Below, piece after piece: positions 7,977-36,154 of a stretch of 64,000 nucleotides of DNA. Source of the DNA: Nymphaea colorata (taxonomy: Eukaryota > Streptophyta > Magnoliopsida > Nymphaeales > Nymphaeaceae); contig NC_045142.1 of NCBI RefSeq assembly GCF_008831285.2, positions 6,684,608 to 6,748,607 of the forward strand, written 5' to 3'. The position numbers were made by a program, and so were the translations under genes. Position 1 is the first letter of the stretch; each line of letters begins with the position of its first letter. The notes under the pieces are model-generated. The model saw only the letters and a program-made list of their open reading frames with translations, did not search any database and was not told the origin of the DNA.

Positions 7977-8330
7977 TGGCTTGATTTAGTGTGTGGCTTG
8001 ACTTTCCAATAAAATTTTAGTTTTGTACCTACTATGGAAAAAAAAGCCCTTTCCTCTCAACAGCTATAAATAGAGAGGACATGCAGATAGCCAAGGCAAA
8101 GAGCTTGTACTAGCTAGACTTGGTAATGACCCTAAACCTGCCATGATCCTTGTGGAAAAGGGTCTTTTTGCCTTTGTGTGCAAATTAGTTCTGTTTTAGG
8201 CTAAAGCTGCAAAGGGTTTGGATCAGATTTTTTGTTCCCAAGCACTAGCGACCAACCACTTCCTTCTGGTTAAATGCTTCCTGAGATTAAGCAATTCACG
8301 GACTCCAGGCATGTTACATTTTCCCCTCTC
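7977..8330 (+). promoter_or_regulatory. P block, copy 1: promoter-like part of R
   Basis: Highly similar to 21001-21350 and, in the upstream half, to 31050-31260 and 33090-33310. The order is tggcttgatttagtgtg, a pyrimidine-rich stretch, a TATA box (8065), then a conserved leader containing aaagagcttgtactag and gaccctaa. Conservation of a TATA box with a fixed downstream leader suggests a transcription start around 8095-8100. In copy 2 a short frame begins ATGAACCACTCC; here the ATG is ACC, so no protein is conserved. Confidence 0.5.
8065..8073 (+). promoter_or_regulatory. TATA box of P block, copy 1
   Basis: tataaatag, preceded by cagc and followed by agaggacatgcagatagcc. The same box with the same surroundings occurs at 21096 and 31132; at 33171 the first bases are lost. 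Confidence 0.55.
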
Positions 8331-8484
8331 TCTCTTTACTTTTTTTTTTGCTTTTTTGTTTGCTTCCTTATGATAGTTTATTTCTTATTTCGTGTGACAC
8401 TAAATTAGTTTGCTATCTCGTTAGTTTTTGTTTTCTTTTTGTCTTTTCTTTGTTATTATCCTGCTTTGGTTTAGTTGATTGTAG

Positions 8485-8710
8485 GGATCGGGTTGCGAAT
8501 CACCTTGGGTTATAAATCACATTGGAATCCTCAAAAACTAATGTGCATGCTGATATGTTTCAAACTTTATCACACCGTGTTATTTATAAAATAAGATAGA
8601 GATTGGTATCTTTGTTTTTTTATTAATATATTGGTCAATATTTTATATGGACTGAATGAACCAATATTGTTAAAAATATTGCATGAATGGACAAAGTTCT
8701 GGAAACGATG
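8485..8710 (+). repeat. Displaced R3 segment
   Basis: Matches 20600-20810 (ctaatgtgcatgc..., atattggtgaatatttta...) but here lies downstream, not upstream, of the P block. Together with the inversion at 7828 it shows this R copy was rearranged. The bases 8331-8484 are T-rich and 8711-8942 show nothing recognisable. Confidence 0.65.
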
Positions 8711-8942
8711 TCAACCTGACTGCCGATCCATTAAAACGTAAACAATTTAAACCCATTCAACTTCATATATATCTACAGAGCATGAGATAATACGCTAGCT
8801 TTTGAATGAAGGAAATAAGAGGGGCAGTGGAAATCGTTTATTTTTATGTAAAATGATTTTACCGAAATTACAACATGTATTGTTCTATTTTGCCTTTAGT
8901 GTTCACAGCTTTTCAGCTTTCGTAGTGTTTGTTTTGTGTGAG

Positions 8943-9472
8943 TCTTGAGAAGCACCAGCTTGCATCATGGTTGATAAGACAACAAGCACTCGAACGGGTG
9001 ATGCTCGAGAAGGAAACAAAGGGATTCAAATCAATTTTGGATGGATTAAAGGTTGAGTGGACAGATTCCAATTTTGGTGGTTCTTCATGGGAAAAAGAAC
9101 CACCACAGATCATATCATTCTCTCATTGAGGAATAAGCATTATGATGTCTGAAGGGAAGGTAAAAGAATAATGGTAAGTGTGTACCCTGATGATCTAAAT
9201 GGTAGGGGAGGGCCTTTTAATCACCTGGGTACTCGTTTTCAATTTTTCTTTTTCCATCCCTTCAGATGTCATAATCCTTCTTCCCCAATCAAAGAAGGAT
9301 CTGATCTGTGATGGTTCTCTTTCCTTGAAGAAATCAACACTTTTAGAATCTGTGTGCTTAGCCTTTAATCCATCGAAAATTGATTTGAATACCCTTAGTT
9401 TCCTTCTCATGGATTACCCATATGAGTGCTTGTTGTCTCATCAACCATGAAGCAAGCTGGCACTTCTCAAGA
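8943..9472. repeat. Inverted duplication IR-A
   Basis: Two arms of about 230 bp (8943-9170 and 9243-9472) are reverse complements with moderate divergence, around a 72-bp spacer. Outer ends read tcttgagaag and cttctcaaga. Both arms, read outside-in, give a similar frame containing RQQAL, EKETKG and a variant of KSILDGLK, which suggests a duplicated fragment of a protein-coding exon that I do not recognise. It lies 0.9 kb downstream of P block copy 1. Confidence 0.75.
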
Positions 9473-10854
9473 TCAGCTTGGAGAAAACAAACTCTGCAAC
9501 ACTAAAGACAAAAGTGGTAACGAGGAAGAAGCGTGATGCATATGAAGACAAACAGAAGTTCACCCATAAGAGGAAAACAAGTAACACTAGCGATCTCGTT
9601 GCGATTTCCGTCGATTTCTCCAATTTTCGACATGATATCCAATAAGCTGAGGCCGATACGGCCAAAAAGGCCGATAACGAGTGAGTTTTTTCTTTTTCCT
9701 CGATCAGACAATGGGTTGCTTTCAGCACTTGTTCTTCAACGCACTGAGGGCTTGAGAGATCTCAATGGAATATTGCAAAGAGTACTTTCTCTTTTCTGTT
9801 CCATGGAAGGCAGGAAATTTTGGTTAGCAGAATTGCTTGGACTTCTTCCTTTGGAAGTCGCCAAAGCATCCCTGCCCATGAGGCCGCACATCGGAAGCCT
9901 TTTTTATACTCCTGATGTACACTCTCTTCGGTCGTATAAATAAAACAAAGATAGTGGCAACTATGCTCAAAGGCAAGCAGCCTTTTTGAGAGGTGAAGAC
10001 TGGTTCCTTTGGATCTTCCAGCACATTTCAATGAAATTGGATTTAACATGCATAGATATAAAATTTAAAGTGCATCTTCTTCCTTTAGAACATGCATCCA
10101 AACTATCGAAGAGGCATTTTGTTCGATCAAAACCTGGAACTCGCATGCTTAATCAGATGTGAGAGAACAATCTACATGCCTGACAAAGTTTAAATGCACG
10201 GGACACAAGAAACAAATTTGCAACTTGTGCACCATAACTAAGTGTTGAACATAGCACACCTCAAACCAGTAGCCAATGCACAGAAAATTGACAAGAAGCA
10301 TTCTTGCCGAGCTCTATCTAAAAAATTACAAACCGAATTCTAATGAAAATGATTCTAAACATCAGAAAAAAGAAAACGCATGATCGATCGACTGGAATGC
10401 TGCCACCTAAGGAATATCATTTATATAAATGCATTAACCTTTGGTCTAAATTTCATAAAAATACTCAAATAAGATAGCTTAACAAATCATCATACAGCTT
10501 GAATTCTAGGTGGCAATTGTATCAACCCAATTGGTGAAATAGACTTTATCACATAAAGGAAAAAAGCAACTCCATTCTTAAGAGGGTCCATTAAACTTGC
10601 GAAAGAAGAAAACAGAGAATCTAAATGTTCCTTTTCAGAATTTTATCCAAGAACTTCATGGACGGAGGAAACAGTGTGCAGTACTTTCTGCTTTTGCACG
10701 TTTTTCTTTTTCTTTTTGTCACTTATGAAAAAAGGATGTTCAGTTGCTTGAACCATTTTATCTGGGCAGCAGCCGACCCTTCTTTTTGGCAGTAGAGCAC
10801 TTTATATCAGTGCATTTCGACCCCAAGGAAAACACTTTTGGTGTTTATTACATA
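9473..10854. other. Unassigned region with exon-like fragments
   Basis: From 9500 to 9640 the plus strand has a Lys-rich frame (RKKRDAYEDKQKFTHKRK) with protein-like composition, ended by a stop near 9640; I do not recognise it. Bases 9672-9707 recur at 12340-12374. The rest, including an inward-facing run of AT-rich DNA at 10050-10850, shows no gene or repeat that I can support. Confidence 0.3.
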
Positions 10855-12332
10855 CCTTAATGCATGATGATTCAGCTGCGCATTTTTGTTGGCCACCACG
10901 CTGCACTAGAGCCCGCTGTGCTCCCCCAAGACTTTATGAAATATTGATTCTGCGTCGGATGCATTGTCAAGTGTGGTCGTCGTCTCGACTTTTCAATTTG
11001 GATTTTTGGAGTCTTTCTTTCTTTTATTGCTTTCTCCAGCCAAATTTAGTTTCCCAGTTGAATGGTTAAGATGATCTTCCTTGTCCTGTTAACACGATTA
11101 TTATACATCGTAGATCCAAACTGGTATTAGCGAGAGTAATAGCACGAGCAGGCATGTCATTTATGTCATTGTCTTGTAGGAACTTTGCTATCCTTCGCCG
11201 TGTAGACCACAGGTACGTGGATGTGTTGTGACCCCAAGTCCGGATTGGCTCAACATTCAGATGTGGACTTCTTTAACCATAGCCAAACTGGGAGCAGGAG
11301 GAGGGCCAGAAGTCGAAGCGAGAGTTGGCACCCAGCGCAGGTAGTTGAGAGGTCACACTTTCTTTGTTGGTTGGCATACCAATATTAATTCAGGTGGCAT
11401 CTCAATTTAAATTAAGGACAGGTACACCACCCCTCCTTTTCTTTCAGGTAGAATGCCAACTTCTACAAAATTTGTTAGCCCTTGTATGTATATATTATTT
11501 TTGTTTATAGGTAACATTTTGCCATCTGCACTTCACAATGAGCCAAAAGAAGATCTATGTATATCGGACACATATACTCACGTTGCACATGGATCCACTT
11601 TTGCCTCATTGTGAAGTGCAGACAGTAAAATGTTACGTATAAACAAAAATAATATATACATATAAGGGCTAACCAATTTTGTAGAAGTTGGCGTTCTACC
11701 TGAAAGGAAAGGAGGGGTGGTGTACCTTTCCTTAATTAATATTGGGATGCCAACCAACAAAGAAGGTGTGACCTCTCAACTACCGGAGCCGGGTGCCAAC
11801 TCTCGCTTTGACTTCTGGGCCTCCTCCTGCTCGCGGTTTGGCTATGGTTAAAGAAGTCCACATCTGAATGTTGAGCCATTCGGGACTTGGGGTCGGAACA
11901 CATCCTCGTACCCGTGGTCTACGTGGCAAAGGGAAGCAAAGTTCCTACAAGACAATGACATAAACAATGTGCGAGCAAAGTTCCTACAAGACAATGACAC
12001 AAACGACGTGTGTGCTCGTGCTATTGCCACCGTAAATGTACTCGGCATTTGCCAAGCTAATACCGGTTTGGATTTACGATGTACAATAATCGCGTTAACG
12101 GGACAAGGAAGATCATCTTAACCATTCAACCGGGAAACTAAATTTGGCCGAAGAAAACAATAAAAGAAAGAAAGGCTCCAAAAATCCAAATTGAAAAGTT
12201 GAGATGATGACCACACTTGAAAATGCATCCAGCACAAAATCAAATTTTCATAAAGTCTTGGGGCAGCAGAGCAGGCTCTAGCGCGGCGTGGTGGCCAACA
12301 AAAATCTGCGGCTGAATCATCATGCATTAAGG
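10855..12332. repeat. Large inverted duplication IR-B
   Basis: Left arm 10855-11549 and right arm 11598-12332 are reverse complements along their whole length, separated by only 48 bp. Outer ends are ccttaatgcatgatg and catcatgcattaagg. Identity looks like 85-90% by eye. The outer part of both arms opens a frame starting MHDDSAA and ending near NLVS.LNG (69 residues), but most differences change residues, so no coding constraint is evident. The right arm has an extra 39-bp tandem step (about 11936-12010). A transcript across it would fold into a hairpin of roughly 700 bp. Confidence 0.85.
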
Positions 12333-12339
12333 CAAAGTT

Positions 12340-12374
12340 CGATAACAAGTGAGTTTTTTGTTTTCCTCGATCAG
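12340..12374 (+). repeat. Direct repeat flanking the inverted duplications
   Basis: cgataacaagtgagtttttt... matches 9672-9707 in the same orientation. The two copies bracket IR-B and the sequence before it. This could mark the original locus into which IR-B was copied, or a duplicated exon boundary. Confidence 0.6.
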
Positions 12375-12610
12375 AGCCTTTTTCCAAGGTTTCGGATTTT
12401 GTTTCCATATGGTTTTTTTGACATTTTTGGGAGATCGGATGGAGTAACTTGTGATTTCAGGCTGGGAACGAAGAGGAAGGCCTCTAGGAGCAACGAAGCT
12501 GGGAAGGGAGCTGCTAAGCTGGGAAGAGAGCCCCTAACAAGCCCAGGCAGCCGCCTGGCCTTTTATGTGAATGTTTATAGCTTTTTTTGTTTTTCTCTAT
12601 CGACCTTTTG

Positions 12611-13144
12611 TTAGACCTGAGTATCAGGCTGGCCCGGTCCCAACATGAAAAGACAAACATAAAAATCCCAAAGAGCTACAAAATCTGAACTCAAGCGGAT
12701 CATCAACAAAGAAAAAATCCACCCCCATTCCCCAAGAGATAGGAGACCGCAAAAGTTCGCCAATTTCTTCATCAATGGTGCCACAAAAAACCAAGCAATA
12801 CAAACACAAAATAAAAAATCAGGCTTACTAAGGATCACAAAGAAGTCCAAGAAGAAAAAGAACAATTTCTCATCATCTTCCTTCTGGATCACTTTGCAGA
12901 GGCGGAGGAATTTTGGGAGCCCTAGAGGTGATGATCTCTCCATAATCCAGTGAGGAGGAGGGCAGCCCAGAGATTGCAAGAGATGCCGAAAATAATGCCT
13001 TAAATTGGCGGAAGTGAAAGAAACGAAAAATTTGATCTCGTCCTCAGTTGTCTCCTTATCACGACCTCGACTGAGATCAACTGCCTCTCTATATCCCATA
13101 GATCCTCCATCCAACCTAGGGTTTCTACCAATGACAATGCCCAT
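12611..13144 (-). other. 177-codon open frame, possible orphan first exon
   Basis: A minus-strand frame opens at 13144 (MGIVIGRNPRLDGGSMGYRE). About 316 nt in, near 12828, the complement reads ttagtaagcc, a fair 5' splice site; beyond it the frame becomes hydrophobic and T-rich, like intron. The first ~105 residues are therefore the more believable part. I do not recognise the product. It adjoins the R/S0 sequence into which Copia-2 inserted (target at 13189). Confidence 0.25.
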
Positions 13145-13193
13145 TCATCACCAATGAGCTAGAGGTCGACTTTGAGAGAGAGAAAGATCAAGA

Positions 13194-13684
13194 TGTTGGC
13201 GAACTCCCTTGATTGACACTCAATCGCCTCGTTTTTTATAAGGGAAAATGAGGAAAGGAGGCTGCAACGCACCAAGGAGGGAATACAGAGGTACTAAGAG
13301 AGGGAGAGAGGACTACACGGGCAGAGAGAGAGAGGGAGAGAGAGTGTGTACAAGGACTACAGGAGAGAGATAGAGGAAAAAAGGGGACTACACGGTAGAG
13401 GGCAGAGGCAAAAGAAAAAAAAAACTTTTTCTTTCTTCCTTTTTGGTGTGCTCTTCTCAACTACACAGTGACACTAAAAATGAAAACATCATTTAAAGAA
13501 AACAAAAAGAAACTAAAAAACTTGACCCTCAAGTCAGTAACTGCTGGGTTGTTCCCATGATCTCCTCCACTTCACCTAGAGTCTCGCACCTTTTTCTCCA
13601 CTTCTCTTTAATCACACATTATCTTGGGAACTGCACACATATTCTCACGTTCTCCATGTTCTCCACGACAGGAGTAGACCAACA
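13194..13684 (-). repeat. Copia-2 3' LTR
   Basis: Starts tgttggcgaact and ends gtagaccaaca on the plus strand; pairs with 17758-18250. It holds purine-rich (GA)n stretches in both copies, which account for several indels between them. Confidence 0.95.
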
Positions 13685-13686
13685 CA

Positions 13687-13696
13687 TTCCCCCCTA
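13687..13696 (-). other. Copia-2 polypurine tract
   Basis: Complement reads taggggggaa and lies next to the 3' LTR edge, the expected site of plus-strand priming. Confidence 0.8.
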
Positions 13697-15397
13697 ATCC
13701 TGGTGTGGGGTGAGGTCTCGTACACCCAACAAGTGCCGCATTGTTGCCAACCTAGTCACCAACAATGCCTTTGTCAACAAATCCACTTGCTGCTCATCTG
13801 TTTGCACAAAATCCACAATAATTTGTCCCCTTTCGACACATTTGCATATGAAATGGAATTTTGTGTCAATATGTTTGCTGCGTCGATGAAAAACTAGGTT
13901 TGTCATCAGTGTGATTGCAAACTTATTATTCACATACAAGTTCACCACCTGCGGCTCTCTTCTAGCCAACTCAGCCAACAGTCCTCTAAGCCAGAGTGCC
14001 TAGCATGTAGCCGCAGTTGCTGCCATGAATTCTGCCTCGCATGAAGACAGGGCTATGGTCTTCTACTTCTGCAAGTTTCATGAGACTAGACTTTCATTTA
14101 CATAAAATGTCATGCCTCCGGTGCTTTTTCGGTCATCGACGCCACCTGCCAAGTCACTATCTGTGAACCCAACAATCACCTCTTCTTCTCTTCCTCTGGT
14201 GTATACAAGACCGAAGTAAATTGTTCATTTCAAATATCATAGAATCTACTTCACTGCCTTGTAGTGCATCACTGTCGGTCTTTCCATGAATCTGCAATGT
14301 ACACCGATGGTGTATGAAAGATCTAGTCTTATGTGGAGAAGATACCTCAGACATCCGATGACTCGTCAATATTGTGTTGCATCCACTGGCTGTCCTTTGG
14401 GATCGTTGTTCAGCTGTGACCTTGGTTCCATAGGGATTTTAGTGGGATTGCAATCGAACATGCCAAATTGAGTTAACACCTTCTTGGCATAGGCTGCCTG
14501 CTTGATGTGGATATCGTTTTTGCCTTGTGCCACCTCGATCCCAAGGTAGTAGTTGAGCAGGCCGAGATCACTCATCTCAAACTCAACTATCATCCATTGC
14601 TTGAATGTTGTAATTGCCTCTGAATCCTCCCCTATTACAATTAGATCATCAACATAAACTCCGACGATGATGCCGGCGCGGTCTCTTCCCCTCATATACA
14701 CGGTTTGTTCCAGTGCGAACTTTGAGAACCCAAGGTGCTTCAAGTGTGTGGTGCTTGTTAGAGACCGTACAATGCCTTGCTTAATTTGAGTACCATATGC
14801 TCCTTGTTCTTCACCGTGAAACCCTCTGGCTGGGCTACATAGACCTCCTCATCGAGTTCACCATTGAGGAATGCTGACTTGACGTCGAGATGATGGAGTT
14901 TCCACCCATGGCTTGCTGTGATCACCTATGGTGTCAAGTTTGGTGACCAGTGCAAACACCTCCTCGAAGTCGATTCCTTGCCTCTGGACATTGCCCTTCG
15001 TGACTAATTTGGCTTTGTACTTGATCACCTCTCCGTTTGAGTTTTTCTTCAATTTGAACACCCATTTGAGTCTGATTGCATTGGTTCCGGCTGGTAGGTT
15101 TGTCAGCATCCAAGTCGAGCTTTTCTCAATAGATTCAATCTCCTTGACCATAGCTACCTCCAATGCTGGCTCGCTTGTTGCCTCTTGGTAACATGACGGC
15201 TCCTCTGTTGCCGCGAGTATGACCTCTTCTTCGACATCTTCATCGTCGAGTTCGACGCGTTTAGCGTCTCTCATGATATCATCGATGTATCTATATCGAA
15301 CGGGTCCGTCATTGTTTTCCTTAATCTTTGAGGCCACGACAGTTTTAGACTCCTCCTCAATGCTAAAATCTGACGGTTCACTGCCTCCTGCATCCAT
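13694..15397 (-). pseudogene. Copia-2 reverse transcriptase and RNase H
   Basis: Copia pol C-terminal half in pieces. From 15397 down: a linker and the start of the RT (WVFKLKKNSNGEVIKYKAKL, about 15000-15070), a break near 14750-14860, RT with the catalytic YVDD (complement 14645-14656) and FEMSDLGLLNYYLG, a stop-ridden stretch 14160-14370, then the RNase H C-terminus with HIDTKFHF and the terminal VDLLTKAL block ending near 13740. Frame changes separate the pieces. Reverse transcription activity is lost. Confidence 0.9.
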
Positions 15398-15439
15398 GTT
15401 TCAATTCCACTTCAGTTTTTCTTCAAATTTAGCATGACA

Positions 15440-16375
15440 ACTTACATGGATTTTCCGCGCCATAGATCTAATTGTCGATGCGCCTTGCAGCCATCCTCAA
15501 CACTGAAATACACCATTGGTTGGCTGCGGTCATTGAGCTTCTTCAGGTGTGGCGTCGTCACCCTGGCATGCGCCGTGTAGTCAAACAATCGAAGATGTGC
15601 AAGATCTGGTTTCCTGCCACTCCAAGCTTCATAGGGTGTGTGCTTGGCCAGCGGTTTGATTCAATGAATTCGAGCATGCTTGGTCTTTTGTTCTGAGCAT
15701 GCACAACCACATCCAGTGAGAGAAGTCATCAACGATTAGTAAGAAATAACTATTACCAGCAGGGGTGGGTGGTGTGATTGGTCCGCAAAGATCAGCATGC
15801 AAGAGTTCGAGTGGCTCCTTCGTTCGATAGTTAGCTGCCGACGGGAATGGCTGTCTCGTCTGCTTCACCGCCAAGCACTCTCGGCATAACTGAGCAGGGT
15901 GAGAGATCAGCGATACCCCGGATGCCATATTCTTGTTTACAAGAATCTTCATTGCTTGAAAGTTCACATGGCCGAGACGAGCGTGCCACAGCCATGCCGT
16001 ATCCTCAAGGTTTGCTAGGAGGCACACTAGCCTTGCAATATGCGGCTCGATGCGGTAGAGATGATTCGGTGTGTCTCTCACCTTCATGATCAGCTGCCAT
16101 GGATTTTTAACGAACACCGTCAGCTCGTCTTCATCCATAACTACCTTGTGGCCTGCCTTGGTGAGTTGCGCAAGACTCACGATGTTGCTATGAAGCTGAT
16201 CATCATTTTTGTATCTGAAAAGAATTGAACCCTTACCCATGATCTGCACTGATGAGCTGTCACCGAACTTCACCTTCCTGGTGATTGCCTCATCCAACTT
16301 GCAAAATTTGACCTTGTCTCTGGTCATGTGGTTGTTGGCACCATTATCTAGGTACCACACATCGGTAGTTTCCAT
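15440..16375 (-). pseudogene. Copia-2 protease and truncated integrase
   Basis: From 16375: the protease with WYLDNGANNHMT, in which the usual Thr/Ser of the D(T/S)G active site is Asn, a variant also known from other plant copia elements. Then the GAG-pre-integrase block (ARLGHVNFQAM and a CxxC further on) and the start of the integrase core (ADLCGPI, DDFSHWMW). Near 15640-15660 the reading jumps to the integrase C-terminal region (SGRKPDLAHLRLF in 15480-15600). The second Asp and the Glu of the catalytic triad are therefore missing: an internal deletion of perhaps 100-150 codons. Confidence 0.85.
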
Positions 16376-16559
16376 GCCCTAGTCGGTCCTGCGTAGTTTC
16401 GGTCATACCTGCTCTTCATTCAACAGGACAGCATCCTGCCGATCTTGCCATTCTGGTCGTTCAATTGCTGCGGACACCACTTCTTCCCACTCTGCAAACA
16501 ACAGGGCTGGCTCGGTGTTGTTAGCTTGTGTGAGATGCATCTACTCCTTCTTCTTGGGA

Positions 16560-17690
16560 GCCTTGCACTGGTTCGCGTAATGCCCTAATTCGTCGCAAAT
16601 GAAGCAACGGATCTGACTCTTGTCACGACCACCACCCCTAGAGCCACCTGCTCTTTCCTTGAGAGAGAAGTCATTGCATCCGCCTCTGCCGCGTCCATGA
16701 CCACCCCGGCTACGAACCCCTCCTTCCCCATGAACTTTCTCCTTTCAGGTCGATGACGGGTCGCCGCCACTTCTCTTCTGTCGTGCCTCCCAATCGACTT
16801 AAGTGAGAAGTAGTTGAGAATCGCCGTTGCCACAGGCTCCGAATGCTCGAGGACGAGAGCGTTCTTCGTAGGTCTAGAGTTATCCCACGACCTCTTCAAA
16901 TAGCATAGTGTTGAGGTCGTAAGACTGCTCTATGCCAGCGATAACGCTGAGAAATCGATTTAGAATGGTGTCAAATAGCTTCTTCACCAGGGCAGCGTTG
17001 CTCAGGGTTCCCCCCCAAGTTGGCATACTTGACGGACATCCCGGTTAGCCTGCCCACGTACCGATCCAACGACTCTTCTTCCTGCATTCGCATGGCGTCA
17101 ATCTCGCTATTCAATGTTTGTAGGCACACATTCCTCACGCGATCTGCCCTGACGAATCTCGTCTTGAAGCAATCCCAGACCTTTTTCGCTGTCACCTTAT
17201 TCGCCACCTGCATTAGGAGATCCTCTGGGAGGGCTTGAAGAAGATGTGACCTCGCCTTCTTGCCCTTCCTCGTGTCGACAGCCACACCGGCCGCCGGCTC
17301 GACTGCCTCCCGGACGCCTTGATCCTCCATCATGGCCTGGACCCTAATTACATAGCTGGTGTAGTTCGTCGTCGTGAGTTGCAGATATTGGAACGTCCCA
17401 CTGGCAATCTCCCGTGCCACCTCAGTCTTGAGGCAATCACAGACCTCTTTCGTTGTCGCCTTATTCGCCACCTGCATTAGGAGATCCTCCAGGAGGGCTT
17501 GAAGAAGATGTGACCTCGCCTTCCTGTCCTTCCTCGTGTCGACAGCCACACCGGTCGCAGGATCGACTGCCTCACAGACGCCTTGATCCTCCATCATGGC
17601 CTGGACCATAATTATCAAGCTGGTGTAGTTGCTTGTCGTGAGTTATGGATACTGGAACATCCCACTGGCAATCTCCCGCACTGCCTTAGT
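16560..17690 (-). pseudogene. Copia-2 gag with internal tandem duplication
   Basis: The gag nucleocapsid knuckle (C-x2-C-x4-H-x4-C, from CFICDELGHYANQC) is at about 16560-16620. Upstream lies a copia capsid domain with VWDCFKTRF and DRYVGRLTGM (about 17010-17190). The N-terminal part is present twice because of a 264-bp (88-codon) in-frame tandem duplication. Near the 5' end an in-frame TAA precedes any good start, and a frameshift separates 16899 from 16971, so no full gag can be made. Confidence 0.85.
17163..17690 (-). repeat. 264-bp tandem duplication in Copia-2 gag
   Basis: Units 17163-17426 and 17427-17690 are adjacent, equal in length and about 90% identical, each ending in a ctcagt/cttagt word. 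The length is a multiple of three, so the capsid frame was preserved when it arose. Each unit encodes one AMMEDQGV...KKVWDCFKT-type block. Confidence 0.9.
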
Positions 17691-17743
17691 TGTGATGATC
17701 GAGATTTGCTTGAATTGATGGAGCTTTGGCTTACAACGTAGAT

Positions 17744-17755
17744 GCTCTGATACCA
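17744..17755 (-). other. Copia-2 primer-binding site (initiator Met tRNA)
   Basis: Complement reads tggtatcagagc, the 3'-end complement of plant initiator Met tRNA, two bases inside the 5' LTR. This fixes element orientation. Confidence 0.95.
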
Positions 17756-17757
17756 AA

Positions 17758-18250
17758 TGTTGACAAACTCCCTTGATTCACACTCAATCGACTTGTTTTT
17801 TGATAAGGCAAAATGAGGAAAGGTGGCTGCAACGCACCAAGGATGGAATGCAGAGATGCTGAGAGAGGGAGAGAGGACTACATGGGTAGAGAGAGATGGA
17901 GAGAGAGAGAGAATGTACAAGGACTGAAGGAGAGTGAGAGAGAGAGAAAAGGGGACTACATGGTAGAGGGCAGAGGCAAAAGAAAAAAAACTTTTTCTTT
18001 CTTCCTCTTTGGCATGCTCTTCTCAACTACGCAGTAACACTAAAAAGGAAAGCATCATTTAAAGAAAACAAAAAGAAACTAAAAAACTTGACCCTCAAGT
18101 CAGTAACTGCTGGGTTGTTCCCATGATCTCCTCCACTTCAGCTAGAGCCTCGCACCATTTTCTTCACTTCTCTTTAACCACCCATGATCTTGGGAACCGC
18201 ACACACATTCTCACATTCTCCATGTTCTCCACGACAGGAGTAGACCAACA
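17758..18250 (-). repeat. Copia-2 5' LTR
   Basis: 493 bp, TGTTG...CAACA, pairing with 13194-13684. Its outer edge borders the caaga target duplication at 18251-18255. Confidence 0.95.
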
Positions 18251-20447
18251 CAAGAGACGAACAGTCATAGAGAGAGAATTTGTGATTGAGAGAGTGGTGC
18301 AGAAAGTTGATAGACTGAAAAATCAAAGGGGGAGAGAGACTGAGAGAGATTGAGAAAGAGACTAACCAAGCAGAAATGAGGAGGACAAGTGATCAAGACT
18401 GCGTAAGGGAAAGGGATCAGACAAAAAAAAATGGCAGATCACATCATAAAGATAACCTCATTTGTTCTCCTTATAAGCACTCTTAAGCAGGAATGGTTCC
18501 TTGAACAGGTACTATGGACTTGTTCCTAATTCATAAAATTGTTGTAGTGCACCTTCATCGTTAATTACATCCTAGAAGACCATCTGCTTATTATCAAATA
18601 TTCACCCGCTACTCTCCATCGTCTGACTTGTAGAATAGGAAAATGTCCACTTAAAAGTCATAACCATCCTCTCTTTAGCATCCAACGTGAAAAAGGCACT
18701 AGACTGGATTTAGTAATCCTTTTTAGAAATTGAATGGATTCGGTCCCTTAACCAAGCCACTGCGCAGATCGTGTATTAATCGACTATAGGGCACCCCATT
18801 CTCGCGGGTTACTGCATTTATCCGAGTTGATGAAGATTTTTCATTTGTTGATCTCCTGGACCACAAAATCAAGATAGTTTGGCATTTCCTCCTGCTCCCA
18901 ATCATCTTGCCCCTGTGCTAGCAACCAGATTTGCCCACAAGAAATAGCTTGAGCCTTTTGGAAGATGTTGCTTAGATATGACCTCATTAGGTCTTTTTCC
19001 AAAGAATGTCGAATTTCTAGCAACACCAAGCATTCACCTTCAACAACCCCAGCGGTTGACCTCTCAAACACCAGTCTGTCCTTTCAATATCAAGAGAAAT
19101 GAAAATGACTATCTTGAGTACTAACTCAAATGAGTTTAAACTTGTACCGAACTACTCTCCGACCCTCTTTCTCTCTCTCTCTCTCTCTCCCTCTCTCTTT
19201 AACTACACATTCATATAGATAGTAGAAATACAAGAAAGATTACCACCATAGAGAAATGCAATGGTTGCCAAGTTCCTGAGTACAAAACAGTATTTGAATT
19301 ACTATAGAAAAGGAGTATTTTAGTAATTTTGACAAATAAGCATACCTATCCTTCCATTTTTGCAGTATAAGTGGGCTTCTCTTTATTAAATCAGAAGGGC
19401 ATTTTGGGTTAAGACAAACAACTTCCTTGTTCTAGACCCAAGTGCAACCTTTAGATACTTGCACTGCATTTAGTCCTAATTTCAAGTAGAAATTTAACTG
19501 AAACCATACATAAGAAAGACTCTGTACACTGGGGCTCAAGTGCAAGAATTTTACTTCTTTCAATCATGCCCACGAGAATTTTCAGCAGCATTTGGATTTA
19601 CAGTCTAGTTTAATGGGGCTCAAGTGCAACCTTTAGACACTCACTCTCTAATGTCAATCGAAATGAGAATTGAGTTTCAGGACAACTATCTAAGGCGGTA
19701 TGGTACTTCTCCACTGAAAATAATAGGGTTCTTGATTAATCCTATTCAATGTTTAAATGGTTTCTCTTAAAAGTTGAAATTATCCACACAAAAAAGGATC
19801 AAATTCCCATGTATCATTTATCCAAGTTGCAGCGAAATCCTAATGTAGATTTGACTGTTTTCCAACTCCAACCGCATGCAACGAGTACGTTCAATTACCT
19901 AGTCATGCTGAGTCACAATTAGCTCGTGGATGGACCTTTCTTCCACAATCTTATGCTCTTCCAAATGGGACCATTTAGTTTGGTTGACATTGAGCAAAAT
20001 GACATAATTTTAAGTTGGTATGATGACAACATAAAAAGCATGACTTGAGCCATTCAAAATTCTGCTCATTTTATATATATATAAGAAGATTTTGACAACA
20101 CTTTGCCTGCCACTTCCCTTTATTATTAGACTAGTATTAGAAAATAGGTACAACTTAAATATGAACTACTATCATTTAATAAAGATTGAAATTCTCCAAA
20201 AATCCAATAAATAAACAGGAGGTGGAGAGTATGTTTCTGCCAGTGTGAGCTCAGAGTTTCAAATCTTTGTTTTCTATGTGGTAAAGATGTGGAAGTTTGG
20301 CACTTGTATATCTTTTCAAAATGCATGTATCATGGATATTATAGAATAAACAACTATATACTCAAAATATCCTATAAGAAATGAATTTTATACTCAAAAT
20401 TACCTATACATAATAAATTGGAGTAACGAATATGTATGTATATATAT

Positions 20448-20492
20448 ATATCCATTATTGGTTAATATATATATATATATATCCATTATTGG

Positions 20493-20559
<67 letters not shown>

Positions 20560-20560
20560 T
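20448..20560. repeat. (TA)n microsatellite array
   Basis: Three TA runs, two of them separated by a repeated tccattattggtta word, inside R3 of copy 2. Confidence 0.95.
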
Positions 20561-26384: not shown

Positions 26385-28250
26385 AATAATGGATCTAGGT
26401 CTACGAAAATAGATCTAAGACTTTGAAATGAGATCCAGATATAGAAATTAGACTTGGGTATGAAATATAGACCAAGAATTTGAAATGGCTTGAACTTGGA
26501 CCAGGCTCTACCTAGGCTAGGTGTGTTTAGGTTGTATGACATGAGCTGGACCTGACTTCGCCTAGTTTAGATTCATTATTTAAAAGTAGGTTTAAGTGTA
26601 GGTTGGGTGCAGGATCAGTGGGCTCAGGCTAAGGTTGAGCCTACCAAATTCATGTGATTGTCTTGGAAATCTAACTTAGGTTTGTGTGATTCATAAGTTA
26701 TGTTTTATGGAAAATATGTGCATGGTGGTAAACAAACAAAGTACCACTATGTGTTATTTTAAGCTGAAACTTGTTCAGATAATGAAGCTAGTTTGAACCA
26801 AGGTTCTAGAAATTAAAGAACATCATAAAGCGAGGTATATGTAGCCTATGCCTTATGTTTATGTAAACAAATATGGCTCCAAAAGAAAAGGCCATTTTAT
26901 TCTTGTGTGTAATTTAGGAGTTCCATTTGAGTTTTCTTTAGCTACGTGAACCAGCTTGTGGGCCTACTTCTAAGATGGCTCTCGAGAAAATTTTACTGAA
27001 AATTTTCTTTCAGATTATTTTAAAAATCAAAATTTCAATTTTTACTGAGCTGTAAATGTCATATTTATAAAGGGAAATCCAGTATGGCTTAAAAAATCTA
27101 GCTATCCTTAAAATTTTCATTAGTGGAGCCGAAGGTGCTTGGAAAAACAACTTACCTTTAAGGATATGCTGAAAAAAAAAAATGATCCAATTCAGCTAAA
27201 TTGAGCTTTAGAGCAGTTTAGAAAGTATAGCAAGTACTAGGAATGAAGTCCATGGCTTTCAGAACTGAATTGAAATCAAACTGGGACAAATCAATTCAAA
27301 CCAAACTAAGAAAAGGTTGATGTATGTGTGTTGAATATAATCCCAGCTCGATTTCAGCTCAAATTCAGCTCAAACTCCTGAAAATATAAGAGAGAAATAG
27401 CTGTAGGGCCTTCAAAACTGAATTAAACTCAAGACATGATGAATGAACTCAAACCAAACTAAATAAGATTAATTTGTGCAAGACAAACAAAATGTTATCT
27501 CGGTTTTTAGCTCGCTCTGGTTGAGCTCAAATTCAGCTCAAACCCTTGAAAATAGTAGAGAGAAAGAGCTTGGAATTGAATTGAACTTAAACCGAGATAA
27601 ATGAACTCGAACTGAAACTAAACTAAAGGTTGATTTATTCATGATAAACATGATCTAGCTTGGCTTCAGCTTGCTCTATTTAGTTGAACTCAAATTCAGC
27701 TCAATCTCTTGAAAATGAGAGAGAGAAATACATCCAGGAAGTTTGGAACTCAAACCGGGATGAATGAACATATACCAAACTAAGGAGAGAAAGATTTGTA
27801 CATTATGAACATGATCCTAGCTTGGTTCAGATTGACATTGTCCCGGTGTTTCAAAATTGGCAAGTGCATGGTTCCAGTGAGTTGATTGAGCTAGAGTGAG
27901 CTCACTATAGTCTTAGAAAACCCTAGTGAGCTGACTCTAACTACTCTTTAGGTCATGTAAAATTGAGAAATGACCTAATTACTCAAACGTTAAGCAATTC
28001 TCAAAAATTTGGTGATGATCTCTAGTCTCCAAGTCAGAATGATTGGGTGCTGGTGTTAAATGGAAATTTTTAGCTTAGACAAAGTAAGTGATCTGGGTTT
28101 AGGTGCTCAATGATAATGTGAAATTTGCTTGTTTGGTAAAAAATGACCCTTGAAAGGATAAAATAGTCATTTGGACTTGTAAAATTTTGGGCCTTCACAC
28201 ACAATTTGCAGAATAAAATTGTAAATAAACCCCTTGGGAGAGTACGAAAA
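26385..28250 (-). repeat. L block upstream half (U3-like), copy 1
   Basis: About 1.9 kb matching 36155-38080 and partly 31595-32022. Near its right edge the complement begins tgtgaaggcccaaaatttt (28199 leftwards), a typical plant gypsy LTR start. However, homology between copies continues about 50 bp beyond this point, so the boundary is not proven. Contains four degenerate ~160-bp tandem units. No coding content. Confidence 0.6.
27230..27850. repeat. ~160-bp degenerate tandem array (four units)
   Basis: Each unit runs through agctcaaattcagctcaaac, ttgaaaatx agagagaaa, an aactgaattgaa/c word and aaccaaactaa. Unit landmarks (gagagaaa) fall near 27390, 27553 and 27719. The same array is present at about 37030-37620. 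Confidence 0.7.
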
Positions 28251-28489: not shown

Positions 28490-31400
28490 ATAAATATTCT
28501 ATTTTTTCTTCAGTCAATCTCTTGAAGACGCCTAGCGCTTCCTCCCACTATCAATCATCATGCGTCCCTCCAGCAATTACCTGATTCTCAAGGAGCTATA
28601 GATCAATCCTTTCAGAAGATGCTGCTGAAATCTGACCTCATTGGGTCTTTGTCCACTCAATCATGAACTTCTAGAGATGCCGAGCAGTGTAAAATTCGCC
28701 TTCAGCGACCCATGTGGTAGACCTCTCGAACCCTCATTGAAAGGAACTCTCTATAGCGCCAGTCTGTCTTTCTAATTCCTATATCGAAATCAGCTTCAAT
28801 TTAGTTCATGTTTCCTATACATTTAAGATAAAAACACATAGCACCAAAAGGAATTGAACCAAACTAGAGACACCTGCCCTATGCACCTTGAGGCTGGTAC
28901 TCATGTCTCTTAGCGTTGATCAATTTAATCTAAATACTAAAAGATGGTCAGATTTTCAACCAGTTGCCTTCTTCACATAGTTATTTCATCATCGAGGCAA
29001 ATGAAAATGACTATCTTGAGTACCAAACCAAATGACTTTAAACTTCTACCAAGCCAACTTTTTTTTTGTAACTAGGGGACTTCTTGTCCCCAAATTTTGA
29101 TATAGATTCTCATTTTATTGGGTCTCTTTCTCTCTCTCTCTCTCACACACACACACAAATACAGACTTTTATACTACACATTCATATAGGTAACATAAAC
29201 ACAAGAAAGCCTACGACAATAGAGAAATGCAAGGGCTGCCTATTTACTGAATACAAAGGAATATTTCAATCATTATAGAAAAGGGGTATTTTAGTCATTT
29301 TGGTAAATAAACATCCCCATCATTCCATTTTTGCCCTTATAAGTGAATTTTTTTTTTAAATTATAAGGCAATTTTTGTCCTTTAGGCTAGACAAACAATT
29401 CACGTGTTTTAGCTCCAACATATTACTCTAAGCATCTAGTCGAGTATGCTGAAATTGAAATGATGTGTTTTAGCCCTTTCATTTCCTTTACACGTGTTTC
29501 GCAATAATTCGAAAATTGAAGTTTAAGTGAAACCATGCACAAGAAAGCTTTTGTATATTTCATAAACTTACAAGCTAGTACAAGAAAGTATTGGTCAATT
29601 CAGAAAATAGTAAATAATGTGAAATTTTCTATAAAAAATAAAAACTATTTTTGCTCAAGTCATTTCTTAATATTCAGTTCCATTTGGAAATATCATTTTA
29701 TCAAAATTGGGTTTTTGACAAAACCATCTTTTGACAGTCACCCTAAACACACCTTAAACAACATTTTGCCTCTACAGTACCGCCTTCAAGTGTCATTTAG
29801 CCATGCCCTTGAGAATTTGGATTCAGATTTATGTCTGATTAAACAAGGTTCAATTTCAAGTTTTAAATACTCACTCTGGTGTTTACATAAAGGAGAAGCG
29901 AGTTTCAGGACATGTATGTAATGTGGTATGGTACTTATTTCCTGAAAAGTAAAAGGATCATGATCTTCCATTCTTTTAATGTTTAAACTATTTCTCTTCT
30001 AAGTTGAAATTGTCTCATGTATCATAGTTTGCAGCAAAATCCTATTAACGTATATTTGATTGTTTTCGAACTCCAAACACATGGAGCGAGTAGGTCCAAT
30101 TACCTAGTAATGTCTTTTCATTAGTCACAATTAGCTCGTGGATGGACATTCCCTCCACAATCTTGTGCTCGAATATTGAGTGAAAGGATACAATTTTAAG
30201 TTGGTTAATATTGAGCAAAAGGATACAATTTGAAGTTGATACCCTGACTATATAAAAAGCTTGACTTGGGCCACATAAAACTCTACTTATTATAAAAGAA
30301 AAAAACTGTCATTAAGAGTTTATGACAACACTTTTCCTGCCAGTGCCCTTTATAACTTGACTAGTATTGGCAAATAGGTATAACTTAAATAGATATACTA
30401 TCATTTACCATTTAAATAAACAGTGAAATTCTCCAAACATCTAACAAAGAAAGAGGAGGGAGAGAGAGAGAGACTGTGTGTGTGTGTGTGAACTCAGAAT
30501 TTAAAATCTTGTGTTCAAAGCATATATCCCGTTTTCTATGTGGTAAAGATAGAATTTTGGCACATGTATATATTTCTGGAAGCATATAACAAGGATATTT
30601 ATGAAAAAAGAAGTGTATACTCAAAATGACCTATAAGAAATGGAATTTATACTTAAATTACCTGTACATAATAAATTAGAGCAACCAAGAATGGATATAT
30701 ATATTATAGCATTTGCCCCAAAAAGTCAAGTGCATGTTCTAGGTGTCGGGTTGCAAATCATCTTGGGTTCCAAATAACATTGCAATCCTCAAACTCTATC
30801 ACACTGTGTCAGCCAAGGGTTGGTATCTTTGTTATTTCATTAATATATCGTTCAATATTTTATAAGGACCAAACGGACCAATATTGGTAGAAATATTGCA
30901 TGGACAAAGTTCGTATATTATTACCATTCAAACTTCGATTCAGATGTCCATTTTCTAATGTCTATCACTCGATAGATTTCAGATTCATGGTCATTCAGTC
31001 ATGTTTCCCAGCAAAAATTTGTTTAGAAAGTCGATATTTCATGAAATAGTTTGATTTATTGTGTGACCTGACTTTCCGTTCAAAATTTAATTTTCTTCCT
31101 ATTATGGAGAAAAGTTCTTCCTGTCAACAGCTATAAATAGAGACAGACATGGGGAGAGGCAAGGCACCAAATTCCAAGGCAAAGAGCTTGTGCTAGAGTT
31201 GGGAAAGACCCTAACCATGCTTTGGTCCTTTGCTGGAAAAGGGTCTGTTGGCCATTTTGTTCAACTTGGTTTTGTTTTCGCTTTTTCTCCAACCATCTTC
31301 CCTTGTTTCTTCTTATTCTTTGTCCTTCTTTTTCTGTTTCCTTTTTGTACTCGTCCCATCTACCATCGGTGGCTATTCATCTGATGTCTGGTTTTATTTT

Positions 31401-31520
31401 TTCAGGCTTGGTTATTCTATAACTTATTCTATGGATCATGCTTTTTCACAAATAATGAGCTTCTGCTACATGAAGCTAACATAGTTGCTAAATTGCAATT
31501 CTTAATGGCAAAAAGAACGT
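28490..31520 (+). repeat. Dispersed repeat R, copy 3
   Basis: S0-like sequence and the diverged 128-bp-repeat homologue (28597-28720), an extra ~240-bp piece, then R2 from 28985, R3 from about 29975 and P from about 31050 to 31520. It ends with a pyrimidine stretch, a ttttttcag acceptor-like site and ctacatgaagctaacatag. The latter word recurs at the far side of IR-D (34820), so this copy shows the state before IR-D was acquired. Confidence 0.75.
31132..31140 (+). promoter_or_regulatory. TATA box of P block, copy 3
   Basis: tataaatag preceded by caacagc and followed by agacagacatgg. The leader differs slightly from copies 1 and 2 but keeps aaagagcttgt and gaccctaacc. Confidence 0.55.
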
Positions 31521-31594
31521 CATGCATATATGATCTGCAGCTAGTTAATCAAAACTAGAGTTTCATGTATGCATAAAAAGCAATATAGCACAGT

Positions 31595-32022
31595 AAGGGA
31601 AACATGATCCTAACTTGGTTTTAAACTGAAATTTAGCTCAAATTCTTGAAAATGGGAGAGAGAAAGACATCCAAAACCTTTGGAACTCAAACTGGGATGA
31701 ATGAACATATACCAAACTAATGGGAGATAGATTGATACATTATAAACATGATCCTAGGTTGTTTGGATTGACATTGTCTCTGTGTTTCAAAATTGATAGG
31801 TGCAAGGTTTGAGTGAGTTGAATGAGCTAGAGTGAGCTCACTACATGCTTAAAAAAGCCTTGTGAACTGACTCAGCAAGTTTTTAGGTTATGTAAAATTG
31901 AGAAATAAACTAATTACTCAAGTGGTCGGCAATCCTCAAAAATTTAGTGAAAATCAATAGTCTCCAAGTAAGAATGATTGGGTGCTGGTGTTAAATGCTA
32001 ATTTTTGGCTTAGACAACATGG
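31595..32022 (-). repeat. L block fragment
   Basis: Matches the inner right part of the U3-like block (27700-28070 and 37500-37890), including one ~160-bp unit. It sits between R copies 3 and 3b, so a gypsy-related sequence separated the two. Confidence 0.65.
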
Positions 32023-33578
32023 AAATTTGACTGAAGCCAAACACGAGAAAGCTTTTGTATATTTCATAAACCTACAAGCTAGTACAAGAAAGTATTGGTC
32101 AATTCAGAAGATAGCAAAGAATGTGAAATTTTCTATAAAAAAAATAAAAAATACTTTTTAGCTTAATTACTTGTTGTTCGTTAATATTCAGTTCCAATTG
32201 AAAATATCATTTTATAAAAATTGAGTTTTTTGACAAAACCAACTTCTCATAGTCACCCTAAGCATACCTTAAACAACAGTTTGCATCCAAAGTACTGCGT
32301 ACAGTGTCATTAAGAGTTTATGACAACACTTTGCCTGCCACTGCCCTTTATAACTTGACTAGCATTGGCAAATAGGTTTAACTTAAATAGATATACTATC
32401 ATTTACAATTTAAAGTAAACAGTGAAATTCTCCAACATCTAACAAAGTAAGAGGAGGAAGTGTGTGTGTGTGTGTGAACTCAGAATTTCAAATCTTGTGT
32501 TCAAAGCATATATCCTGTTTTCTATGTGGTAAAGATGGAATTTTGACACGTGCATATTTTTCTAGAAGCATGTGACAAGGATAATAATGAAGAAAGGACT
32601 GTATACTGAAAATAACCTATAAGAAGTGAATTTATACTTAAATTACCTGTACATAGTAAATTAAAACAACCAATAATGGATATATATTTTATAGCATTTG
32701 TCCCAAAAAATCAAGAGCATGTTGTAGGCATCGGGTTGCAAACCATCTTGGATTCCAAATCACAATGGAATCCTCAAAAACTAATGTGCATGCTGATATT
32801 TATCAAACTCTATCACACCGTGTCAGTCAAGGGATGGGTACCTTTGTTATTTTATTAATATATTGGTCAATATTTGACCAATATTGGTAGAAAATATTGC
32901 ATGCATGGACCAAGTTCGTAGGTTATTCCATTCAAATTTTGATTCAAATATCCATTTTTTAGTGTATGTTACTCGATAGAAATTCAAATATAAAAGTCAA
33001 ACTTGGATTTGATTTAGATTTCAAATTCATGGTCATTCAATTATGTTTCCCAGCAAAAAATTTGCTTAGAAAGTCGATATTTCATGAAATAGCTTGATTT
33101 AGTGTGTGACCTGACTTTCTGTTCAAAATTTAGTTTTCTTACTATTATGGAGAAAAATTCTTTCCTCTCAATAAATAGAGACAGACATGGGGAGCAGAAA
33201 GGCACCAAATTAAAAGGCAAAGACCTTGTACTAGAGTTGGGAATGACCCTAACCATGCTATGCTCCTTGCTCGAAAAGGGCCTGTTGGCCATTTTGTTCA
33301 ACTTGGTTTTGTTTTGAGCTATGATCAGATTTTTCGTTTTTTCCATCCCTCTCTGTCTTCCGCTGCTATTTGTTTGTGTTTTTTTTTGTGTCTATTTCCT
33401 CTTCCCTTGTTTTCCCTTTTTCTTCGACCATCTTCCCTTGTTTCTTCTTCTTCTTCGTCCCTCTTTTTCTGTTTCTTTTTTGTAACTGTCCGATCTACCA
33501 TCGGCAGCTATTCATCTGATGTCTGGTTTTTTTTTTGCAAACTTGGTTATTCTATAACTTATTCTACGCTCCCTTTGC
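32023..33578 (+). repeat. Dispersed repeat R, copy 3b (partial)
   Basis: Starts inside R2 (gaaatttgactgaagcc), skips to R3 near 32300 and runs through P (33090-33578). The TATA box is damaged: only ataaatag remains at 33171-33178. After the pyrimidine stretch it ends ctccctttgcag, an acceptor-like site, immediately at the left end of IR-D. Confidence 0.7.
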
Positions 33579-33999
33579 AGCCCCAGTTGGGAAGGGATAT
33601 CGCCCATCGTTTGGTGGCCGGAGTTGCTCACCATCGCCGGAATATGAAACTGATTTGCGGAGGAACCGATGGCAGTAAGACTGGCAGCGCCAATCGACTT
33701 GACGAACGACAATTCGCCGGCGTTGTACCTCCATAGGTTATGCTGCCTGAGATTGGAAACCATGAAGGCTGAATTGACCTCACTCGGCTGGTTGCCCATA
33801 AACGCCTGAGCGGCCGTCGGAAGTGGGATGCCGATGAACTACTGGTGGTTTCCCGGCAAGTTATTTCTGGCAAGCTGATTGACCAAAACTATGTTTCCCT
33901 GTGTGGTCGGCTCAAGAAAACCAATGGGTTCATCAGGTACAGTGTCTGCATGCTGTTCGATTGAACCTCTGCGGCATTGCCAGAGAAGTAAGTAGCCAT
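33579..33999 (-). pseudogene. BEL1-like homeodomain gene 5' fragment (left arm)
   Basis: Start codon at complement 33997-33999. The reading begins MATY, continues with the family hallmark QTLYLMNP, then after a frame shift QQFIGIPL-like sequence and FMGNQPSEVNSAF further on. These are features of the N-termini of plant BEL1-like (BLH/BELL) homeodomain transcription factors. The SKY, BELL and homeobox domains are absent: only roughly the first 140 codons are present. An in-frame TAG and an indel destroy the frame. Being an outward-facing copy of the right arm, it would form the antisense strand of a hairpin in a plus-strand transcript. Confidence 0.75.
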
Positions 34000-34391
34000 G
34001 ATTTCCAAAATTGATAGATCGAGAGCCCTAGATTTCAATTAACAGAAGAATCATCTTCTAATCAATATTGAAAGAACGAACTCCGTCAGGCCGTTGCTGA
34101 TGCCGTATTCCTTTCCCTGGTACCCATGACGATGAAAGGGATAGTTGGTAGTTCCAGAACTTGAAGTACCATGTATCAGAGCCATCTAATAATGTGAAAC
34201 CATGACAAGGCCAAGGTCTCATCTGTTAATTGGCACAGACGATTTCACATTATCTGAAGGCTCTGATACATGGTACTTCAAGTTATGGAATTACCAACTA
34301 TCCCTTTCATCGTCACGTTTCATTATTGATTAGAAGATGATTGATCTGTTAATTGAAAAGTTGGGATCTCGTTCTCTCAATTTCGGAAATC

Positions 34392-34819
34392 ATGGCAACT
34401 TATTTATCTGGCAATTTTGCAGAGATTAAATCGGACAGCATGCAGACACTGTACCTGATGAATCCAAGATATGCTGGATTTCCTCAGCCGACCACACAAG
34501 GAAACGTAGTTTGGTCAATCAGCACGCCAGAAATTCATTGTCGGCAAACCACCAGCAGTTCATCGGCATCCCGCTTTGGCCAGCAGCTCAGGCATTCATG
34601 GGCAACCAGCCAAGTGAGGTGAATTCAGCCTTCATGGCTTCCAATCTCAGGCAGCATAACCTATGGAGGAACAATGCCGGCGAATTGTCGTTTGTCCAGT
34701 CGATTGGTGATCCCAGTCCAATTACTGCCACTTCCTCCGTGAATCAGTTTCATATTCCGGTGATGGCTGAGCAACTCCAGCCACCAAACGATGGGCGAGA
34801 TCCCTCCCCAACTGGGGCT
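34392..34819 (+). pseudogene. BEL1-like homeodomain gene 5' fragment (right arm)
   Basis: ATG at 34392 opens MATYLSGN, then MQTLYLMNPRYAGFPQ (the conserved BEL1-like N-terminal box), and, after a one-base frame change near 34510, HQQFIGIPL and FMGNQPSEVNSAF. Length is about 143 codons, against more than 500 for complete family members; the homeodomain part is missing. It resembles one continuous exon, as expected for the long first coding exon of these genes. Probably a captured gene fragment and not a functional gene; the parent gene should be elsewhere in the genome. Confidence 0.8.
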
Positions 34820-35186
34820 ACATGAAGCTAACATATTTGCTAAATTTCATTTCTTAATGGCATAAAGAAAGTCATGCATATGATCAATGCCACAAAGACA
34901 CAGATAAAAACCTCCCAACAAGCAATTTATGAGTCATCTGATGGAGCATTCAGCTTGACTTTAGAAAATTTGGCTTGTTGCTGGAGCTTGGGCATGTCCT
35001 GAACTCTGAGAAAAGGGGAAAAGAGTAAAGGAGCTTTGTTAGCGCAAATTCTCTGGTGTCACTCTTTCCACAAAGGGTATGTTGAGAAGCCGAGGAATAT
35101 CACATAGCAGGTTATAAGTTGAGTACTGAAGAAAATAGGCAGGGTCCATTTTAATTATTTATGCATCCATGTAGTTGCCCTTCCGT
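34820..35186 (+). repeat. R remnant and lead-in to FB2
   Basis: 34820-34880 continues R (acatgaagctaacatatttg, as at 31469). From about 34905 it matches 22560-22850, the lead-in to FB1. Confidence 0.6.
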
Positions 35187-36154
35187 TGGGCCTCTTAGAG
35201 AAAACAAGGCAACCGCAAAGCCGACATGTGAAGAGGGGAGAGTAAGACGATGATGCCAGCACAATTTTGCCTACCGAATTTGCTCATTTTCCTTTCTTGT
35301 TTGCAGGGGACATTCAGAATTTCGTGACACATCTTTGGCTGAGGTAGAAAACGAGAAAAAAAGATAAGGGGAGACCAATTCCCCTTTGTCTTTTCACTCT
35401 TTTGTTTCTTGGCGTGAGATTGTCTTTTGGATTTTTTATTCAGTGGCCTTGCTTGATTTTTCTATTTCTCTTAGGGATCGAGCTTTTTAACTATGGAGAG
35501 GGAAAGCCAATGAAGATTTGGGAGAGTTTCTGGTATTCTTTTACCAATTATTTCTTAGGTGCTGGGATATCTAGGGCTGGTAATGGATTCGGAACAGAGA
35601 TGCGAAAGATCTGATAGAAAGCTGTGGCATAGCTCATCAATACCGTTGCCAGGAAATCATTGCGGGAGAAGCATCACTCACTCGCCGAGAAGCACCGGGT
35701 AATGCCTGGCCATTGCGTAACGCCTCTGCTTCCTGTCAGATCTTTTGCATCTCTGTTCCGAATCCATTACAAGCCCTTCATATCTCACCACCTAAAAAAT
35801 AATTACTCAAAAGAACACCCAAAACTCTTACAAATCTTTGTCGGTTTTCCCTCTCTAAAGCTCAAAGGCCATTGAATAAAAAATCTAAAAGACAATCTCT
35901 CATGCTCTACGCCCTGTCACCAAAAATAGTCGTCATGAAGCAAAAGAGTGAAAAAATTAAAAAAATAGTCATCAAGAAGCACAAGAGTGAAAAAATCGAA
36001 GGGAATTTGCCACTGCTTCAACTTTTTTCCTCATTTCCTGCTTCAGCCAAAGATCTATCACGAAATTCCAAATCTCCCTGCAAACAAGAGAGGAAAACGA
36101 GCAAATCCGATAGGCAAAATTGTGTTGGCATCGTCATCTTACTCCTCTATATCT
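35187..36154. repeat. Foldback-like inverted duplication FB2
   Basis: Second copy of FB1. Left arm about 35187-35614 and right arm about 35738-36154, with gcgaaagatctgatag and ctgtcagatcttttgca near the centre. Its right arm ends abruptly at the L block. The left arm keeps an open frame ending NGFGTEMRKI, alike in FB1. The duplication of the whole inverted structure shows that FB existed before, or moved with, the surrounding repeat. Confidence 0.75.

Follow-up and report, generated by a model that had tools for sequence, protein, structure and literature searches.

A 64-kb stretch of the Nymphaea colorata genome (C5:6684608-6748607, hereafter the window; the genome comprises 407.8 Mb in 783 contigs) holds four copies of a TATA-bearing block, P, and five long inverted repeats (IRs). 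We found that it belongs to a tandem array of promoter cassettes. Inverted duplications captured in many independent events accompany the cassettes, for the most part downstream of P, and this anatomy is well supported. The units share one cassette with a conserved TATA box, the payloads that follow on the same strand are diverse and have unlinked sources, and in two cases capture and inversion were near-simultaneous. The explanation that we favor, with a probability of about 0.6, is a tandem array of hairpin-RNA (hpRNA) genes in which one promoter cassette would serve changing payloads. The original prediction is supported in part, namely in that a repeat family places a promoter block with a TATA box in front of gene fragments that were captured and inverted.

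The scored P blocks form a single tandem array

Self-comparison of the window confirmed the four predicted plus-strand P blocks, with TATA boxes at 8065, 21096 and 31132 and a damaged one in P4. The blocks and their neighbors are as follows (window positions).

5575-7828, plus strand: R block 5' of P1, rearranged, with inserted sequence
7974-8480, plus strand: P1 promoter/leader block, TATA at 8065
18332-20812, plus strand: R block 5' of P2, belonging to the repeated cassette
21008-21539, plus strand: P2 promoter/leader block, TATA at 21096
26413-28244, plus strand: Q block, the downstream part of the unit, with a second copy at 36183-38082
28539-30912, plus strand: R block 5' of P3
31044-31431, plus strand: P3 promoter/leader block, TATA at 31132; its tail, 31432-31529, represents the insertion site lacking IR-D
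32016-33029, plus strand: R block 5' of P4, shortened
33087-33566, plus strand: P4 promoter/leader block, with a 6-bp deletion that damages the TATA

The surroundings of P1 (7743-8699) are rearranged, with an inverted upstream piece on its 5' side and a directly repeated piece on its 3' side.

A genome search yielded 75 first-look candidates for P, 40 of which were scored, the other 35 carrying no score. All 40 scored matches fall within C5:6467341-6974291 (about 510 kb) and none outside, 35 on the plus and five on the minus strand; the scored P copies are members of one tandem array and are not dispersed. We read 294 kb of sequence directly, namely the window, C5:6440001-6640000 and C5:6930001-6960000, the stretches beyond the window having been picked by place and spacing, regardless of the IRs there. 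Units at C5:6.93-6.96 Mb are spaced at about 5.85 kb and are 97-99% identical. What the units of the array have in common is the R+P cassette: when distant units were compared with a regular unit of C5:6.93-6.96 Mb, homology stopped inside P or at the P tail.

The most conserved part of P is the TATA box itself. Of 16 aligned P copies, 15 have kept the word TATAAATAGAGA intact. It is the most conserved 12-mer across 580 aligned bp, matched in 0 of 20,000 column permutations, a test that takes no account of kinship among the copies. The best 12-base window scored 0.99 in P (at TATAAATAGAGA) as against 0.81 upstream of P. Within the 64 kb, TATAAATAGAG occurs three times (8065, 21096 and 31132) and is confined to P1-P3.

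Inverted repeats lie mostly downstream of P

The five IRs of the window, listed without strand, are as follows.

8924-9495: IR-A hairpin payload, arms of about 280 bp, 82% identical, 10-bp spacer; by eye, the inverted homology possibly extends over 8889-9512
10855-12332: IR-B hairpin payload, arms of about 700 bp, 90% identical excluding gaps
22868-23833: FB1 hairpin payload, found in many array units
33576-34822: IR-D hairpin payload, inside the P tail, an inverted duplicate of the 5' end of a BEL1-like gene
35240-36144: FB2 hairpin payload, a segmental copy of FB1

At E<1e-8, the search of the window listed no palindrome besides these five. All five had been predicted to lie downstream of a same-strand P, and all five are real; their number overstates the independent cases. 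The FB1 and FB2 segments are 81% identical (Kimura two-parameter distance, K2P, 0.134; arm-arm K2P 0.218 and 0.246) and represent one event copied with its segment, so that the window contains at most four independent IR events. Furthermore, P3 and P4 have the same nearest IR, IR-D. Taken alone, the window gives a weak association between P and IRs (p=0.017 by circular shifts, post hoc).

The array data make the association firm. In the 294 kb, 17 of 19 P copies (13 plus, six minus strand; not all independent, as detailed below) are followed by an IR at no more than 3 kb in the direction of their strand, as against 5/19 with one upstream. A further copy, at locus L042, was left out of the 19, having been picked by its BEL1-like match. 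Of the two P copies lacking a downstream IR, one is followed by a weak inverted pair at 0.65 kb. Comparison of the 33 IR entries by blastn gave 15 unrelated clusters, and 13 of these families have a member in the P-downstream zones, which make up 18.9% of the sequence read; families a and d occur upstream only. Array sequence away from P served as the control. When 29 IR loci were placed independently with their lengths kept, a mean of 5.9 families fell in the zones and 13 were reached in 1 of 20,000 trials; with the IR loci shifted circularly within each stretch, the mean was 5.1 and 13 were reached in 20 of 20,000. According to the coordinates from the genome search, 30 of the 40 P matches have an inverted pair of one of the 11 searched payloads within 3 kb on the downstream side and one has such a pair on the upstream side, a result in which only the downstream/upstream contrast is informative, since these payloads were chosen within the array. 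The comparison of downstream with upstream sides that had been proposed as a check thus came out as predicted in both counts.

Two side observations concern the arrangement of the payloads. Downstream of a minus-strand P, at C5:6506942-6509439 (L015:6942-9439), about four copies of the payload i hairpin stand in tandem. At C5:6600845-6605180 (L025:845-5180), nested palindromes of payload f lie between two facing P copies.

Payloads are copied from unlinked loci

We searched the arms of 11 of the 15 IR families (all but a, b, d and g) against the whole genome. Nine of the 11, as expected of hpRNA genes, are homologous to a locus elsewhere; each has a single main match beyond the array, and these matches fall on eight other contigs. 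Two of the nine source loci (BEL1-like and MATE) were read as sequence and identified as genes. IR-D matches C13:6301604-6302236 at 83%, with a weaker paralogue on C1. The frame at the C13 locus contains a POX domain (E 5e-17), pointing to a BEL1-like homeodomain gene, the 5' end of which IR-D copies. The payload at C5:6585508-6587696 matches C2:31162083-31163098 at 90%, with a weak match on C3; the C2 match begins within a 591-aa frame with a MatE domain (E 3.9e-70), and the payload copies the 3' end of this MATE transporter gene. Matches were also recovered for payload h (C8:20253278, 89%), payload e (C1:21072112, 90% across 402 of 631 bases), payload f (C11:1735119, 88%) and FB (C9:1180006-1180501, a source-like place at 80%).

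The expectation that the arms hold gene pieces therefore held for IR-D and, elsewhere in the array, for the MATE hairpin; the other IRs of the window gave no coding match. Pfam searches with read-through translations (window 8900-10900, 10855-13192, 21540-23840 and 33576-34902, and one MATE arm) returned only matches below the cut-off, and solved-structure searches with two arm peptides gave no result. Scans of the window with Rfam at the gathering threshold and for tRNAs found no match, and hence none to a known MIRNA family.

Capture, insertion and decay

The distances between arms and sources bear on the order of events. For the BEL1-like (BELL) payload, the arm-arm K2P is 0.124 and the arm-source values are 0.092 and 0.100; for MATE, they are 0.070, and 0.083 and 0.081. 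The star shape of these distances, with arm-arm about equal to arm-source divergence, means that in both cases the fragment was inverted at nearly the same time as it was captured.

The P3 unit provides the site without an insert with which IR-D can be compared. By eye, about 20-34 bp of the P tail have been replaced, and the right junction has GCT in common with the target (microhomology) and shows no target-site duplication (TSD). A 9-bp near-repeat flanking IR-D, considered as a candidate TSD, was rejected, as by eye both copies are present in the site without the IR. For the other four IRs of the window, the TSD test gave nothing above the null, in a setting where an intact Copia control reached a null fraction of 0.057 and an older Copia was missed. 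A second BELL hairpin, at C5:6787926, stands behind an intact TATA and has the identical junction at 98-99% identity, and it and IR-D are therefore copies of one event. Four further units have a single BELL copy plus 38-39 bp of the other arm, as expected of palindromes losing an arm.

Across the hairpins, arms range from 68 to 1,316 bp in length and from 96% to 72% in identity. Examples of young arms are found at C5:6558448-6559578, 6497929-6498836 and 6585508-6587696. All 33 IR entries are long inverted repeats with a short spacer that can fold into an extended duplex, and the longest perfect duplex runs in young hairpins measure 111, 87, 66 and 56 bp. For payload h (908 nt), the predicted fold is -658 kcal/mol, compared with a mean of -232 for 20 shuffles. 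Identity to the source at the scale of small RNAs persists in part: 88/604 and 61/603 of the 21-mers in BELL and 177/1075 and 148/1034 in MATE are identical to the source.

A model of hairpin-RNA genes and the evidence against it

In the model that we propose, each unit would consist of the fixed R+P cassette, which contributes the TATA box and the leader, and of a payload 3' of it in the same orientation. The payload would be part of a gene or of some other locus from elsewhere, in inverted duplication around a short spacer. A P-driven transcript would fold into a long hairpin, and Dicer-like cleavage might release 21-24-nt small interfering RNAs (siRNAs) against the source gene; transcription, dicing, targeting of source genes and any benefit are what we infer from the arrangement of the DNA. 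New payloads would arise when an unlinked locus is copied into a unit as an inverted repeat; IR-D appears to have entered the P tail, replacing some target bases, with microhomology and no TSD. Units would multiply through tandem duplication, and old hairpins would decay.

Several observations weigh against this model. The arms decay neutrally, and there is no selection to keep their pairing: changes that keep pairing through G-U showed no bias between P-sense and antisense RNA (212 vs 220 in 14 IRs, p=0.74), and changes in IR-D are even across codon positions (13/14/15), so that no coding selection was found there. The TATA is damaged in P4, the block that adjoins IR-D, and intact in the sister copy of P4 at C5:6787434. 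The permutation test on TATAAATAGAGA leaves kinship among the copies aside. The 17 of 19 P copies with a downstream IR are not independent, as they include four near-identical Z/regular units, P3 and P4 sharing IR-D, and two facing copies sharing the f palindrome. An IR also lies upstream of 5/19 P copies (families a and d), family d doing so within the R block of four units, and distances from P to the IR reach 2.8 kb. Eight loci were taken solely for their P match, and five of these are outside the stretches read (L003-L007, 1.5-kb flanks). Of the five, only L005 carries a long palindrome downstream of P (627 bp, at 0.5 kb); L006 has a 38-bp palindrome, L003 an inverted pair upstream of P, and L004 and L007 none within these flanks. 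Some sources are poor as well. IR-B has a source-like place in two pieces at only 65-77% (C12:15964870-15965310), payload k matches C8:6823391-6824067 in pieces that are not collinear, payload c matches C14:10536330 at 68%, and the only outside match of payload i is 121 bp at 72% on C3. The genome search with the IR-A arm found array copies only.

A more far-reaching version of the model, which we put forward tentatively and consider possible rather than probable, is that of a genomic library of self-targeting hairpins, in which a selected cassette would repeatedly capture fragments from unlinked host genes, the products would serve as siRNA precursors, and tandem duplication and decay would turn them over. 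If true, this would be an array-based, renewable RNA interference system, perhaps directed at genes that are selfish or duplicated, or working as a drive element. One conserved promoter block with many unrelated host-derived hairpins would show the birth of siRNA genes in numbers. The array also permits testing the inverted-duplication model over an age series (arms 96% to 72% identical) with sources known and, if expressed in germ tissue, could bear on plant genetic conflict and gene silencing.

Alternative explanations

The main rival to an array of hpRNA genes is a palindrome hotspot created by breakage near an active promoter, which we judge unlikely overall though far stronger than the alternatives that follow. 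In a fragile array, break repair near P would repeatedly insert inverted copies that arise by template switching on unlinked DNA. The hairpins would be functionless, and P would simply mark the site of breakage. The replaced target bases and microhomology without a TSD at IR-D and the neutral decay of the arms would all fit, and the tandem palindromes at C5:6506942-6509439 and the rearranged P1 unit suggest instability. A hotspot alone does not, however, lead one to expect that 15 of 16 copies keep the TATA word intact, nor that IRs are mostly downstream of P in both orientations, unless transcription from P drives the breakage.

It is very improbable that the units are members of a transposon family (Pack-MULE, foldback element or Helitron) carrying captured gene pieces, with P as the end of the element. 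Such elements are known to capture gene fragments. However, all 40 scored P copies occupy one locus, so that none of them is a dispersed copy with common termini, the site without the insert at IR-D shows no TSD, the arm sequences differ among units and form 15 unrelated families, and no transposase domain passed the Pfam cut-off in the stretches scanned.

Equally hard to credit is a decayed tandem family of protein-coding or long noncoding genes whose promoters survive and whose IRs are later accidents: it would keep a conserved TATA and leader, and the regular units do share open frames of 92-178 aa, but five such frames from one unit had no Pfam match over the cut-off, distant units cease to resemble the regular unit at the P tail, and 13 downstream payload families would be left unexplained.

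Retrotransposons in and near the array units

The window also contains a Copia-type long terminal repeat (LTR) retrotransposon at 49143-54464, a young insertion whose LTRs are 98.6% identical and whose 1,193-codon open frame includes RVT_2, rve and copia gag domains. Between the P1 and P2 units, on the minus strand at 13193-18252, is what we take from its motifs to be an older Copia-like element (LTR K2P 0.087). In regular units, the segment 3' of the FB hairpin (L030:1862-3070) has frames that resemble reverse-transcriptase fragments by motif, an assignment that Pfam did not confirm.

Comparison with known systems

Pack-MULEs and Helitrons resemble the array in capturing gene fragments. The array differs from them in that IR-D has no TSD, the scored P copies are not dispersed, and the payloads have no shared ends. 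The origin of plant MIRNA genes by inverted duplication, as outlined in PMC3237417, likewise leads from a fragment to a hairpin gene. Here the arms reach 1.3 kb and many of them stand under one promoter cassette, and the window has no Rfam match.

Also comparable are the Teosinte Pollen Drive hairpin Tpd1 and the maize pollen hpRNAs, also plant long non-coding hairpins with near-complete complementarity, which produce siRNAs against a protein-coding gene (PMC11390486). The passages compared here name a single hairpin as the drive and, in maize, 28 putative precursors of hairpins, and they mention neither an array nor a shared cassette.

Further parallels are the Drosophila hpRNA loci and clusters hp-CG4068, hp-tHMG-cluster and hp-pncr009, for which small RNAs are proven (PMC10317233). 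Going by the parts of that study used here, they share with the array long inverted repeats of host-gene origin, tandem copies, a parent gene elsewhere, and rapid birth and loss, and the tandem payload i hairpins at C5:6506942-6509439 resemble such clusters. In the literature compared, as far as the excerpts extend, hairpin-RNA genes are single or are tandem copies of one hairpin family, and our literature search turned up no promoter array with many hairpin payloads. Whereas each Drosophila cluster, as described in those parts of the study, repeats one payload family (PMC10317233), the Nymphaea cassette heads at least 13 unrelated payloads.

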